Assembly: GCA_022827275.1 (NCBI GenBank)
Contig: JAJDTG010000022.1
Coordinates: forward strand, 62,001-126,000
DNA: 64,000 nucleotides
DNA from: Candidatus Dadabacteria bacterium
GTDB taxonomy: Bacteria; Desulfobacterota_D; UBA1144; Nemesobacterales; Nemesobacteraceae
Direction of reading: 5' to 3'
Positions 57,773 to 63,594 of this stretch are shown in pieces; position 1 is the first letter of the stretch, and every line of letters starts with the position of its first letter. A model generated the notes under the pieces. The model was given only the letters and a program-made list of their open reading frames with translations. It searched no databases and had not been told where the DNA came from. Position numbers and translations under genes: made by a program.

Positions 57773-58492
57773 TTACCGTTTCATGGGAGACAGCACGCCG
57801 TCAGCATCCAAGAGATCATGGCAATCCTTAAGAGAACCGTCATCGTCTGTCAGATATTTTGCCAATGCGGGGTGCACATCGTCTCCGCCCATTTCACCGC
57901 AGTGGGTATCTCCTATGTCCGCTAACTCAGGAGTCCCTGCCGGTACCATTACATATGGACAAATTACTACAGGTTGGTAGCCTGTGGCGTCATCGGCGCG
58001 ACGGTAGGCATAGCCGGCCCAGTAACCGGTATATATCGTGTCTGCTTGGATGTCAGAGTCGGTTCTTGCTACAAGAAAATATGATCCGGGCCTGTCAAAA
58101 TTTCCATCCGTTTCACTCACGTAATAGGTTGAAATAGTTTCGGCATTTGTATCGCTTTCGTCTACTTTTACTCCTACCTGTACAAAGGTTGCAGATCCGA
58201 AAGCAACACCACTTGCGGTGATCCTGACATTAGGCTCACTAAGGTCTCCAGGTTCTTCCTCGCGCAGGTCGACTTTTTCATTCGTACAATCCACTGTACC
58301 ATCTGCATTAACACTGGAATAGAATCCCCTCATCTCAATCGGTTCCACTTCATCATCATCGTCATCTAGAAGATCACAAGATGAAAGCGCTAGCAATCCT
58401 GTAAGGCCAAATGCTACCGATAAAGCAAGAATTCCGAGACCACGTAACCCTTGAAAACGGCGCAACGCAAGGCTGTTGTAAAGCTTCCACAT
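57773..58492 (-). CDS. Hypothetical lipoprotein
   Basis: 239 residues. A signal peptide with lipobox LALSSC (Cys about 39) is followed by an Asp run (DLLDDDDDEVE), which may keep the lipoprotein at a given membrane or bind cations. The rest is acidic and soluble with four Cys residues that could pair. No family recognised. It has its own GAGGAGGG ribosome-binding site, a promoter and a strong terminator, so it is a monocistronic, possibly well-expressed gene. Confidence 0.7.
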   Translation of the reverse strand: MWKLYNSLALRRFQGLRGLGILALSVAFGLTGLLALSSCDLLDDDDDEVEPIEMRGFYSSVNADGTVDCTNEKVDLREEEPGDLSEPNVRITASGVAFGSATFVQVGVKVDESDTNAETISTYYVSETDGNFDRPGSYFLVARTDSDIQADTIYTGYWAGYAYRRADDATGYQPVVICPYVMVPAGTPELADIGDTHCGEMGGDDVHPALAKYLTDDDGSLKDCHDLLDADGVLSPMKR

Positions 58493-59902: not shown

Positions 59903-62629
59903 TCAAGCCAGATCAGGAGGTGCTTGCGTATGGGTTTGCGTTTCCGGAAGAATTTTAATCTGCCCTTTAGGTTCCTCAGGTCCGGGGTCGTAAAAAATTT
60001 CCTTTTCGTTTGCTAGGAACACACCTTTCCATAACGCGTATCCTTTTCTGCTCATGTGAAGGCCGTCTTCAGTGAACAATTCCTCCCTTATATTCCCGCT
60101 CTCATCCAGCATGTGGTCGTAGACATTCAGGTAAAAGGTGTTGGGCTCTCTTGACAGAAACTGTCTTGTTAGATCGTTTGACGCCTCGATTCTGTCAAGG
60201 AAATGGAACCTTGCGGGACTCGGTTTTATTGAGACGAAGGTAAATTTCGTGTGAGGGTAGGATTCTCTGAAGCGGTAGTAAAAATCCACAAAGAAATTCA
60301 GTACCTGTCTTGGTATGCAGCCGTCCCCTATATCGTTATCGCCCGCATAGAAAACCAAGGATTTAACGTCATTCGGTTTTATAAGTCGCTCGAAATAATG
60401 CAGACAGTAAGAGATTCTGGCGCCGCCGAAACCAAGGTTCACAATGTTATATCCGGGGAAATTCCTCGCAATGCCCCTCCAGAGGCGGAAACTGGAGCTG
60501 CCATAAAATACCGTTGCGTCATCCTTTTTCCCCACGTGGCGTCTCTCAAGGATCCTTACGTCCTGCTCAAACAGGTTTTTATCAATTGCCGGGGATTCTT
60601 TTTCGACCTGCTCGAAAGTTTTTAAGTTTATCTTGGTGGATTCTGCTCGCCTTGCAAGTCCCGCTGCCTCTTCCACATATTTTCTGTACTCGTTTCCATA
60701 TTCCCTGACGAACTCAAAGAGCCTGTCTTTGTTCTCCTCCGGGTTTTTTACGTAATCGGATACCCTGAAGGGTTTTTTTATCACTAGGGAGAACACGTTG
60801 TGGTTTATTCTTTTGTCGAAGTTCGCCACCGCTACGGGAACGATGTAGGGCTCAGGTGAGACGGATGCGGCCAGAAGAAAAGCGCCGAGCTTGAACGGAC
60901 CGGGCGATTCCTCCGTTGTCATGCTGGTTCCCTCTGGACTTATTACTATGTTAAATCCTTTTCCTAGATGCTCCTTGGCCGTTTCATAGAACTTTTTCCT
61001 CCAAGCTTTTCTCCGCTCGGGGGTTTCTTGGGAGAGATCGGATTCGTCGGTGTAGACATTTATGTGTCCAAGCCTTTTATAGTAGTATTCATGTCCGTAT
61101 TCTTCCGCCCTTGGAACGCGTACGACGCGTATCCCGGCCTCGCCGTACTTGGCGTAGAGAACCATCGAGCTTATGAAGTGAGAATCGAGCGTAATCTGAA
61201 AATGGTTGGGAAGGGTGTTATAGGGATGGTTAAGCAGGTGATTGTATATGAAGATGTGTCCAGGCTCATCTGGCAGATTCTCCCAGCCTTCAATTACGTA
61301 GGGAGTGCTGTTGAAGACTCCTGCGAACTGCTTGGCCGCCATGGTCCTTATTTCGGTCGGAGAAAGTGACTTGGGCGCCGCGGTCACGGACTGATAGACG
61401 TTTTTTAAGCCCTCGAAAAAATTGTATTCCTTGTAGATTTTTCCGAGGATGTCGAGGCTGAGACGGGACAGTTCCCTCTCGAGGCTCTCGCCTTCTTTCT
61501 CCAGTCTGAACAGAAGCCGGAAAGCGTCATCTAGCGTGAGAGGGCTGTTTAGCAGATGGGGAAGCTTATGAATGGGGGAGTTTACGCTTAGCTGCATGGA
61601 GTTTTGCTCGATAAGGTTGCTTATAGCCAGTATTTCTCGTTCGTATCTTTGCGATATGAGCCCCGCGCGGGCATTTCGAAGCCGGATCGACACCAGCCAC
61701 AGAAGTCTTCTGGCCAGAGCCAGCGCCGATTGGGGGTCCTTGTTCAGGATTTTATGAAGGTTGCGGGCGCTTATGTGATAGATAACCGAGTTTCTGCTCG
61801 CAACAGCGGTAACGTCGTTTGATCCGGCGGGGGCGGCACCCATCCATCCGACCATGTATCCCGGGAGGTTGATCAGGTGAAGTGCGGCGGATTCCTCGAT
61901 TCCTCCCTGCGCCCCGTCGGGAGAGAAGCACAGTGCCGCCTTTCCATAAGCCAGTATGTCTATTCCTTTCGAAGCATCCCCTTGGTTGAATATGGGTTCG
62001 TTGTTTAGATAGTATTTTTTCTGGGTCGCTTTTGCCAGCTGGCGCAGCGTTTTATCAGGGAAAACCTCGAAAAAAGGAGATTGCCTCAGAAGCTGAAGCG
62101 AGGTAGGTACGGATATGTATTTCCCTTCCTGGGAAAAGTCGCCCGTTTTTCCCGTCTCAATGTCCCAATTAACGTTGTTGTATTCTGCAAGCTCGGTTCT
62201 CACATGCCTTAAAAGGTTTATGCTTTTGCCGAGAACGAACAGCAGGAATTCGCGCCCAAGAAGGGGTTCCTGGTCAAAGAATTTTTCAAGATTCTGGTGA
62301 TTCCACTTTAGCAGGACGCAGGGCCTTTCACATGTGATTGTTGTGTAGTAGCGTTTGGGAGAGCGAAAACCCGACCAGCCTACGGGAGTGAATTTCTCAT
62401 CACTTTTTCCCACCGAGAATTCCTTGGTTCTGTCTTCGACGCTGATTGAGAAATTCACCAGGCCCTCTATGAGAAAGTAGAAAGAATGGCTGGGTTCGAA
62501 CTGTTTGGTGAGAACATAGCGTTCCGGCACTTCTATCAGTTCGCCTATCTTAAGCAGGAAATCGGTTTTGTCTTTCTCGAAATTCGAAACGAACGGAAGT
62601 TCGTTGAATATCTCTCTTTTTTCCCACAT
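59903..62629 (-). CDS. Fusion protein: two cNMP-binding-like domains, PlsC-like acyltransferase, SGNH hydrolase
   Basis: 908 residues, no signal peptide or obvious membrane helix. Domain 1 (about 11-130) and domain 2 (about 175-315) look like cyclic-nucleotide-binding folds (FEPSHSFYFLIEGLVNFSI; NNEPIFNQGDASKGIDILAY), but the phosphate-binding Glu/Arg cassette is not kept. A helical linker leads to a PlsC-like acyltransferase (about 440-650) with IFIYNHLLNHPYN and VISPEGTSMT; the usual HX4D Asp is absent. The last domain (about 700-880) is an SGNH/GDSL hydrolase: FYGSSSFRLW, NLGFGGARIS, GDND (Asn765) and Asp855/His858 in EDGLHMS. I infer a regulated lipid- or acyl-remodelling enzyme. It is convergent with the LigD-like gene and has no operon partner. 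Confidence 0.85.
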   Translation of the reverse strand: MWEKREIFNELPFVSNFEKDKTDFLLKIGELIEVPERYVLTKQFEPSHSFYFLIEGLVNFSISVEDRTKEFSVGKSDEKFTPVGWSGFRSPKRYYTTITCERPCVLLKWNHQNLEKFFDQEPLLGREFLLFVLGKSINLLRHVRTELAEYNNVNWDIETGKTGDFSQEGKYISVPTSLQLLRQSPFFEVFPDKTLRQLAKATQKKYYLNNEPIFNQGDASKGIDILAYGKAALCFSPDGAQGGIEESAALHLINLPGYMVGWMGAAPAGSNDVTAVASRNSVIYHISARNLHKILNKDPQSALALARRLLWLVSIRLRNARAGLISQRYEREILAISNLIEQNSMQLSVNSPIHKLPHLLNSPLTLDDAFRLLFRLEKEGESLERELSRLSLDILGKIYKEYNFFEGLKNVYQSVTAAPKSLSPTEIRTMAAKQFAGVFNSTPYVIEGWENLPDEPGHIFIYNHLLNHPYNTLPNHFQITLDSHFISSMVLYAKYGEAGIRVVRVPRAEEYGHEYYYKRLGHINVYTDESDLSQETPERRKAWRKKFYETAKEHLGKGFNIVISPEGTSMTTEESPGPFKLGAFLLAASVSPEPYIVPVAVANFDKRINHNVFSLVIKKPFRVSDYVKNPEENKDRLFEFVREYGNEYRKYVEEAAGLARRAESTKINLKTFEQVEKESPAIDKNLFEQDVRILERRHVGKKDDATVFYGSSSFRLWRGIARNFPGYNIVNLGFGGARISYCLHYFERLIKPNDVKSLVFYAGDNDIGDGCIPRQVLNFFVDFYYRFRESYPHTKFTFVSIKPSPARFHFLDRIEASNDLTRQFLSREPNTFYLNVYDHMLDESGNIREELFTEDGLHMSRKGYALWKGVFLANEKEIFYDPGPEEPKGQIKILPETQTHTQAPPDLA

Positions 62630-62784: not shown

Positions 62785-63087
62785 ATGATAAAACGTATGG
62801 TGATGTGGAAACTGAAGGATTCACACGAAGGAATGGGCAAGGATGAGCTTATTGCCGAGTTCGAACAGGAAATAGAGGGACTGAAAAGCGCCGTTCCGGA
62901 GATAAAGACTATGGAGCTTGGCAAGAGTTTCAGCGAGCTTCCCGTCACGTACGATGTAGCCCTCTATTCTGAGTTCGACTCAAAGGAAGATTACGAAGTT
63001 TTCCTGAAGCATCCCGAGCACTTAAAGGTTGGGAAGTTCATCCGGCAGATAAGAACGGATGTGGCTCTTGTCGAATACGAAACGTGA
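62785..63087 (+). CDS. Dabb-family (stress-responsive A/B barrel) protein, copy 1
   Basis: 100 residues: MIKRMVMWKLKDSHEGMGKD, IEGLKSAVPEIKTMELGKSF, YDVALYSEFDSKEDYEVF and HPEHLKVGKFI, the dimeric alpha/beta-barrel (Dabb) pattern. Function in bacteria is mostly unknown. A strong AAGGAG site precedes the ATG. About 56 of 100 residues equal copy 2 without gaps. Confidence 0.88.
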   Translation: MIKRMVMWKLKDSHEGMGKDELIAEFEQEIEGLKSAVPEIKTMELGKSFSELPVTYDVALYSEFDSKEDYEVFLKHPEHLKVGKFIRQIRTDVALVEYET

Positions 63088-63291: not shown

Positions 63292-63594
63292 GTGTTAAAG
63301 CATATAGTGATGTGGAAAATCAAGGATTCGCACGAAGGGATGGACAAAAATGAGATCATGGACAGGGTCAAGAAGGATCTCGAGGGCCTCAAAAATTTTA
63401 TCCCTGAGATAAAGACCATGGAGATCGGCAGGAATTCTAACGAACTTCCCACATCGTTTGATATTGCTCTTTATTCCGAGTTCGAGTCGATGGAAGATCT
63501 TGAGATCTACAAAGAGCATCCCGAGCACGTAAAGGTCGCGCAGTTCATCCGGCAGGTAACGGCAGATGCGGTTGTTGTAGACTACGAAACGTGA
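63292..63594 (+). CDS. Dabb-family (stress-responsive A/B barrel) protein, copy 2
   Basis: 100 residues starting at a GTG with an AAGGAG site: LKHIVMWKIKDSHEGMDKN, IPEIKTMEIGRNSNELPTSF and HPEHVKVAQFIRQV. It arose by tandem duplication with copy 1. Its end overlaps the tsaD stop codon of the convergent gene by 13 nt. Confidence 0.88.
   Translation: MLKHIVMWKIKDSHEGMDKNEIMDRVKKDLEGLKNFIPEIKTMEIGRNSNELPTSFDIALYSEFESMEDLEIYKEHPEHVKVAQFIRQVTADAVVVDYET

Follow-up and report, generated by a model that had tools for sequence, protein, structure and literature searches.

A single gene in the genome of a Candidatus Dadabacteria bacterium joins two cNMP-type (CRP-like) domains, an LPLAT/PlsC-like acyltransferase and an SGNH/GDSL hydrolase in one chain, and the two halves of this protein have stayed together across two phyla, in two cases as neighbouring genes and in one case or more as a fusion. 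We tentatively favour, at somewhat short of an even chance, a cytoplasmic, membrane-peripheral enzyme that would remodel lipid acyl chains by deacylation and reacylation, in which the CRP-like barrels would bind a non-canonical ligand or serve in assembly. The anatomy of the protein, its conservation and the coupling of its halves can be read directly from the genomes compared. The window, that is the whole 64,000-nucleotide stretch of DNA analysed, carries the gene and its features at the following positions.

59903..62629, minus strand: entire gene from its ATG through the stop, 908 aa
62270..62533, minus strand: cNMP-type (CRP-like) domain 1, residues 33-120; PF00027, 27.6 bits against a cut-off of 27.5
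62339..62392, minus strand: ligand cassette in domain 1 (residues 80-97), FTPVGWSGFRSPKRYYTT, without an acidic residue
61736..62017, minus strand: cNMP-type domain 2, residues 205-298; PF00027, 34.1 bits against a cut-off of 27.5
61799..61864, minus strand: ligand cassette in domain 2 (residues 256-277), VGWMGAAPAGSNDVTA; W262 for Glu and N271 for Arg in the phmmer alignment with 4ev0
61310..61669, minus strand: helical region, residues 321-440; dN/dS 0.028, helices from a low-confidence model
60827..61282, minus strand: LPLAT/PlsC-like acyltransferase, residues 450-601; PF01553, 35.8 bits, E 8e-9, cut-off 23
61175..61243, minus strand: altered motif I, residues 463-485, NHLLNHPYNTLPNHFQITLDSHF; H464-X17-D482 replaces HX4D, hhalign probability 96.6
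60878..60937, minus strand: motif III, residues 565-584, PEGTS...FKLGAF; S569 where canonical PlsC carries Arg
60560..60652, minus strand: junction, residues 660-690, corresponding to a stop, an intergenic gap and a new ATG in G013 (same family, other genus) and in Persicobacter
60032..60496, minus strand: SGNH/GDSL hydrolase domain, profile match 712-866; S712, G735, N765, D855, H858
59906..59989, minus strand: variable C-terminal tail, residues 881-908; dN/dS 0.32, missing from the homologue of another family (G019)

Open-frame translation of 59903-62629 on the minus strand runs from its ATG without an internal stop over 908 residues, and a search of the whole chain against Pfam recovered cNMP_binding (in two stretches), Acyltransferase (PF01553) and Lipase_GDSL_2, each above its cut-off; with the domains cut out, the hydrolase scored 47.2 bits against 32.9, and the first cNMP domain was marginal. 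The initial annotation, which named no strand, had described one uninterrupted frame of this length, these four domains in this order, and a complete SGNH set, found here at G710-S711-S712, G735, N765, D855 and H858; all of this is confirmed, as is its supposition that the fusion is real, given the full-length forms in related genomes described below. It knew of no described system with this order of domains, and among the matches listed in a search of the open-licence literature for this combination, none describes it; the architecture is probably undescribed so far, though built of known domains. No real family was recognised in the stretch of about 120 residues between the second cNMP domain and the acyltransferase, where the sole Pfam match was at chance level (E 0.22). 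AlphaFold models built from nine rows were too low in confidence for use, both for the whole chain (mean pLDDT 45.4) and for residues 395-680 (mean pLDDT 40.0).

Full-length fusions are present in 12 of the 13 genomes of the genus, our own included (a 25-contig assembly of 1.77 Mb at 96% completeness), and their conservation at 82-94% identity to the protein under study in 11 of the 12 further genomes argues that the gene is neither a chance product nor a sequencing artefact. Sponges or other marine animals are the hosts of this genus. In the thirteenth genome (G003), where the chromosomal position is unchanged, an internal deletion leaves only residues ~4-64 and ~808-907, from which the gene seems dispensable, an assembly fault in this MAG being possible. 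Survey at class level matched 16 of the 57 genomes examined, the sixteenth (G017) through a single weak cNMP-only match (E 8e-4). The fusion recurs in G019 at 59% identity, with an open frame of 896 aa; a TAA flagged in that sequence is apparently the stop codon of the gene itself. In G013 the protein is divided into two genes, of 697 aa and 199 aa, 17 nt apart. Beyond the phylum, 51 of 72,556 plasmid records had a tblastn match, and one of these reached at least 80% query coverage: Persicobacter sp. JZB09 (Bacteroidota), at 34.6% identity over query residues 39-868. There, a 655 aa gene (cNMP, cNMP, PF01553) is followed by a 209 aa gene (SGNH), the TAG of the first being separated from the ATG of the second by 1 nt. 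Because the same parts form two neighbouring genes in so distant a bacterium, a joint action on membrane lipids is probable.

Purifying selection acts on all four domains. Mean dN/dS between our gene and the 12 genus sequences was 0.069 and 0.109 for the first and second cNMP domains, 0.028 for the helical region, 0.067 for the acyltransferase, 0.101 for the linker and 0.076 for the SGNH domain, rising to 0.318 in the C-terminal tail and falling to 0.018 in motif I (residues 460-490) of the acyltransferase.

This acyltransferase is related to the PlsC/LPLAT family by a profile score above cut-off and by NH, PEGT and FK.G.F motifs which align with those of its own genome's PlsC, and departs from the family in carrying HX17D for HX4D and EGTS for EGTR, with two sensors in front and an SGNH domain behind. 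In the ACYLTRANSFERASE domain canonical HX4D is not present at normal spacing; in NHLLNHPYNTLPNHFQITLD, the motif His and Asp are alignable to HX4D yet lie 17 residues apart. When five aligned rows were compared by hhalign with six PlsC-like proteins of the group (seven loci were taken, and L072, which gave no frame under the rule applied, was left out), NH464 was matched to NH and TLD482 to the [LF]D of HX4D, and a joint MAFFT alignment returned the same pairing of His and Asp, although the two methods disagree on the placement of motif II. The 13 extra residues between H464 and D482 form an insert, N[HY]PY[NY]TLPN[HN]FQI, that is nearly invariant across two phyla. EGTS occurs in all five rows, against EGTR in five and EGTT in one of the six comparison proteins. 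The PlsC-like label of the initial annotation stands as a profile assignment (35.8 bits against 23), without HX4D at normal spacing, a point that the annotation had overlooked, or EGTR. In G019, PF01553 scored 21.4 on the whole chain, below the cut-off of 23, and 24.2 in another search. Among solved structures, the 20 chains found with a whole-chain profile include no acyltransferase, and the acyltransferase domain alone drew only three unrelated chains at chance level (E 0.46-5.6).

It might be supposed that this fold is a dead scaffold or a lipid-binding module and that the SGNH domain alone is catalytic, as would suit both the lack of HX4D at normal spacing and the substitution of EGTS for EGTR; such decay is, however, distinctly unlikely for the domain most conserved between phyla, whose motif I is under the constraint given above and whose H464, D482 and E566 are invariant in the five rows. 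Identity to Persicobacter reaches 49% in the acyltransferase, compared with 36% in the SGNH domain and 23% in the cNMP region, and on this basis the acyltransferase is probably active. As the same genome also encodes a canonical PlsC, a 260-aa open frame on another contig, the acyltransferase of the fusion would be an extra enzyme. The Arg of EGTR helps to bind the acceptor phosphate, and its replacement in EGTS points, weakly, to an acceptor other than lysophosphatidic acid. If this is right, NHxxNxPYxTLPNxFQITLDSHF would offer a searchable signature of an LPLAT subfamily with a putative new acceptor.

The catalytic residues of the SGNH domain are retained in fused and split forms alike; GSST replaces GSSS in G019 and Persicobacter, leaving the nucleophile Ser unaffected. 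The domain shares every catalytic residue with SGNH/GDSL hydrolases (PF13472; 6njc, 7pzg, 2hsj, 4iyj), and differs from them in being fused to, or encoded beside, an acyltransferase. Its nearest solved chains are 6njc (E 4e-10) and 7pzg (E 5e-10), followed by 2hsj, 4iyj and 3p94, and the nearest solved relatives carry the names sialate O-acetylesterase or lysophospholipase L1. Esters of many kinds are substrates of SGNH domains, and the residues preserved here leave the choice of ester wide. One PHROGs family without an assigned function matched over the SGNH end of the protein. No secretion signal was seen by eye in the split SGNH forms, and the fusion contains no long hydrophobic stretch (best 19-residue mean of 1.46, against 1.99 in the canonical PlsC of the same genome).

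Acyl groups are known to be relayed between an AT3 or MBOAT acyltransferase and an SGNH partner. By analogy, the SGNH domain here could accept an acyl group from LPLAT, or from the LPLAT product, and hand it to a further acceptor, the domains working in series and not in opposite directions. We regard this as the main rival of deacylation and reacylation, because the SGNH partners of AT3 and MBOAT proteins belong to transfer systems, and the fused or adjacent arrangement of the present halves would suit it. AT3-SGNH and MBOAT-SGNH acyltransferases are reported as paired transfer systems (PMC9833829, PMC12148441, PMC7448272), and resemble the present protein in pairing or fusing an acyltransferase with an SGNH domain; their acyltransferases, however, are membrane proteins acting on cell-surface polymers, whereas the LPLAT domain has no long hydrophobic stretch. 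Nor was an acceptor pathway recognised beside the gene in the neighbourhoods examined (by eye, partly with Pfam), and we consider such a relay unlikely.

Those neighbourhoods vary between lineages. Within the genus it is a solitary gene: Dabb-domain genes point away from it on one side, and on the other it converges with genes for a 130-aa unknown protein and a type III pantothenate kinase. All seven genus loci compared, as well as G003, share this arrangement. A patatin phospholipase lies directly downstream of the split pair in G013, and a PAP2 phosphatase ~540 nt upstream of that in Persicobacter. The fusion of G019 has genes for an HTTM protein and an alginate-export-type protein as neighbours, none of which was recognised, by eye and partly by Pfam, as a lipid gene. 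Of the three contexts from outside the genus, two have a connection with lipids, which is no more than suggestive.

The joining of a CRP-like sensor to an enzyme in one chain is also seen in mycobacterial PatA, in which a cNMP domain exerts canonical cAMP gating over a GNAT, and in neuropathy target esterase, which combines cNMP and patatin domains; the enzyme domains of the present protein are different. In cyclic-nucleotide binders, the Gly, Glu and Arg of the phosphate-binding cassette hold ribose and phosphate (PMC11224242 and PMC6717892). Here, in contrast to cNMP-binding domains generally, the cassettes read VGWSGF..P.R in domain 1 and VGWMG... in domain 2, with Glu in neither. The phmmer alignment with 4ev0 places W262 at the Glu position and N271 at the Arg position of domain 2, and the latter is Asn or Cys in the aligned sequences. 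Cassette 1 is strongly maintained, TPxGWSGF..P.R..TT being invariant in all five rows, Persicobacter among them, and including R93, the register of which is uncertain as the phosphate-binding Arg. The twin cNMP-like sensors of the initial annotation are upheld by the PF00027 profile in both domains, but lack the ribose Glu in both and the Arg in the second, which that annotation had not noticed, and these residues make it unlikely that they are able to read ordinary cyclic nucleotides.

The same annotation had proposed cyclic-nucleotide gating, which is not borne out. On such a view, cAMP, cGMP or a cyclic pyrimidine would bind the sensor pair and switch the enzymes. The two PF00027 matches are compatible with it, as is the resemblance, by PADLOC, of domain 1 to the sensors of TIR/PycTIR (Pycsar) effectors (E 2e-6 for our protein, 6e-10 for G019 and 2e-9 for G013), and the invariant R93 could be the phosphate-binding Arg; that resemblance and the retained cassette Arg leave a cyclic pyrimidine some probability. 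Class III nucleotide cyclases (PF00211), two in G013 and one in G019, also speak for it; they lie on contigs other than the gene's. Against this, PF00211 was matched in none of the 13 genus genomes (5 of 14 control genomes in the same search), 12 of which keep the gene; the Persicobacter protein has no PADLOC match; cassette 1 has no acidic residue, and cassette 2 has exchanged Glu for Trp and Arg for Asn. Further, family 2B encapsulins offer a parallel, in that those of their sensor domains whose sites are divergent bind no cyclic nucleotide (PMC12407261). Together these observations leave gating by cyclic nucleotides improbable.

The likeness to Pycsar TIR effectors and family 2B encapsulin domains consists in the PF00027 profile, the PADLOC matches and weak NCBIfam similarity (cyc_nuc_ocin, encapsulin 2B, AGP acyltransferase and others, all far below cut-off). 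The PADLOC similarity of domain 1 could be taken to indicate a Pycsar-like defence effector, in which a sensor would be coupled to a lipid-attacking enzyme. We hold this to be very improbable, given that no class III cyclase was found in the genus, that those of G013 and G019 are on contigs other than the gene's, that none was recognised by eye among the Persicobacter neighbours, and that the gene keeps one chromosomal place in 7/7 genus loci, unlike a mobile island. The barrels exemplify CRP-like domains which, like those of family 2B encapsulins, are under selection without the textbook ligand residues.

For the favoured deacylation and reacylation enzyme, we infer substrates, reaction direction and control as follows. 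H464 and D482 would be brought together in the LPLAT domain despite the 13-residue insert, and the domain would use acyl-CoA or acyl-ACP as the donor of a fatty acyl group, with a lysolipid-type molecule other than lysophosphatidic acid as the acceptor. The SGNH domain (S712/N765/D855/H858) would open esters in the same lipid pool, such that one chain might run a Lands-type exchange, both adding and removing acyl groups as the initial annotation had proposed; the bulk of phosphatidate synthesis would fall to the separate canonical PlsC of the genome. Together with the helical region, the pair of CRP-like barrels may set activity or oligomeric state in response to a small ligand other than a canonically bound cyclic nucleotide, or may serve in assembly only. 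It is conceivable, though doubtful, that the barrel pair no longer reads cyclic nucleotides and switches deacylase and reacylase in answer to some other metabolite, such as a lipid precursor, with the H-X17-D form acylating an acceptor that lacks a terminal phosphate; this would constitute an undescribed class. Deacylation and reacylation of membrane lipids would then share one allosteric switch in one chain.

Scanning the named genome collection with the single protein reached close relatives only, namely eight named relatives, all MAGs of Candidatus Dadabacteria. A whole-alignment profile (E 1e-12) matched 30 of 386 genomes and no further member; 15 were the Dadabacteria already known, and the others matched by the SGNH part only (14) or the cNMP part only (G105). 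An N-terminal profile found nothing in the groups around G110 and G117 (0/23, 0/394 and 0/395, the last two sets overlapping, with no positive control in any); these centres were picked since SusD, a Bacteroidota-type family, matched 3 of 18 genomes, a Persicobacter neighbour protein having earlier matched 18 of 80. A stricter search for Persicobacter's own group gave 0/68, so its order was probably never reached by the profile searches. Viral contigs gave 37 pattern matches and no relatives. In a tree of seven sequences, the branch that decides between fusion-first and split-first has 54% support. Two frames of about 900 aa, considered as further fusions, were set aside on translation: named by eye, that in G191 is an SGNH-esterase-like fusion, and that in G105 an antiporter-like protein with a cNMP domain.

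In a PF01553 search of G006, a genome that is 91% complete and held in one contig, the sole match was the four-domain fusion and canonical PlsC was not found, in contrast to genomes G000, G005, G013 and G019, in which the same search recovered the canonical enzyme. Its absence from G006 could reflect either assembly loss or real replacement. In G003, the gene is reduced to a relic at about 915-1350 of locus L062 (contig C3), which occupies the same chromosomal place as the intact gene and retains the two ends, with approximately residues 64-808 gone. Although the absent middle may stem from an assembly fault, this smaller genome appears able to do without the four-domain gene.

The following genes lie near the fusion in the window, or beside its split forms in G013 (patatin) and Persicobacter sp. 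JZB09 (PAP2):

57776-58492, minus strand, lipoprotein-like protein in which LSSC is followed by a stretch of Asp residues
59500-59889, conserved 130-aa ORF that shares sequence with the end of the pantothenate kinase gene through an overlap
62785-63084 and 63292-63591, a tandem pair of Dabb-domain genes
L060 4881-5918, patatin gene
L053 4481-5341, PAP2 gene

Pfam returned no family for the lipoprotein-like protein or the 130-aa ORF. Across seven genus loci, the former retains 52-84% identity, most neighbours being higher, and the latter 81-90% (74% in G003). The Dabb-domain gene is single-copy in loci L022, L026 and L062, rather than paired.

A related SGNH domain is a promiscuous fusion partner, given its fusion, in unrelated genomes, to an esterase-like enzyme (L054 4370-7066) and to a cyclase-like hydrolase (L056 3669-5213), both named by eye. 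Separately, a Na+/H+ antiporter-like protein (L055 3318-6017; also named by eye) carries a canonical cNMP cassette, GEMAL..PRTA, close to its C-terminus.
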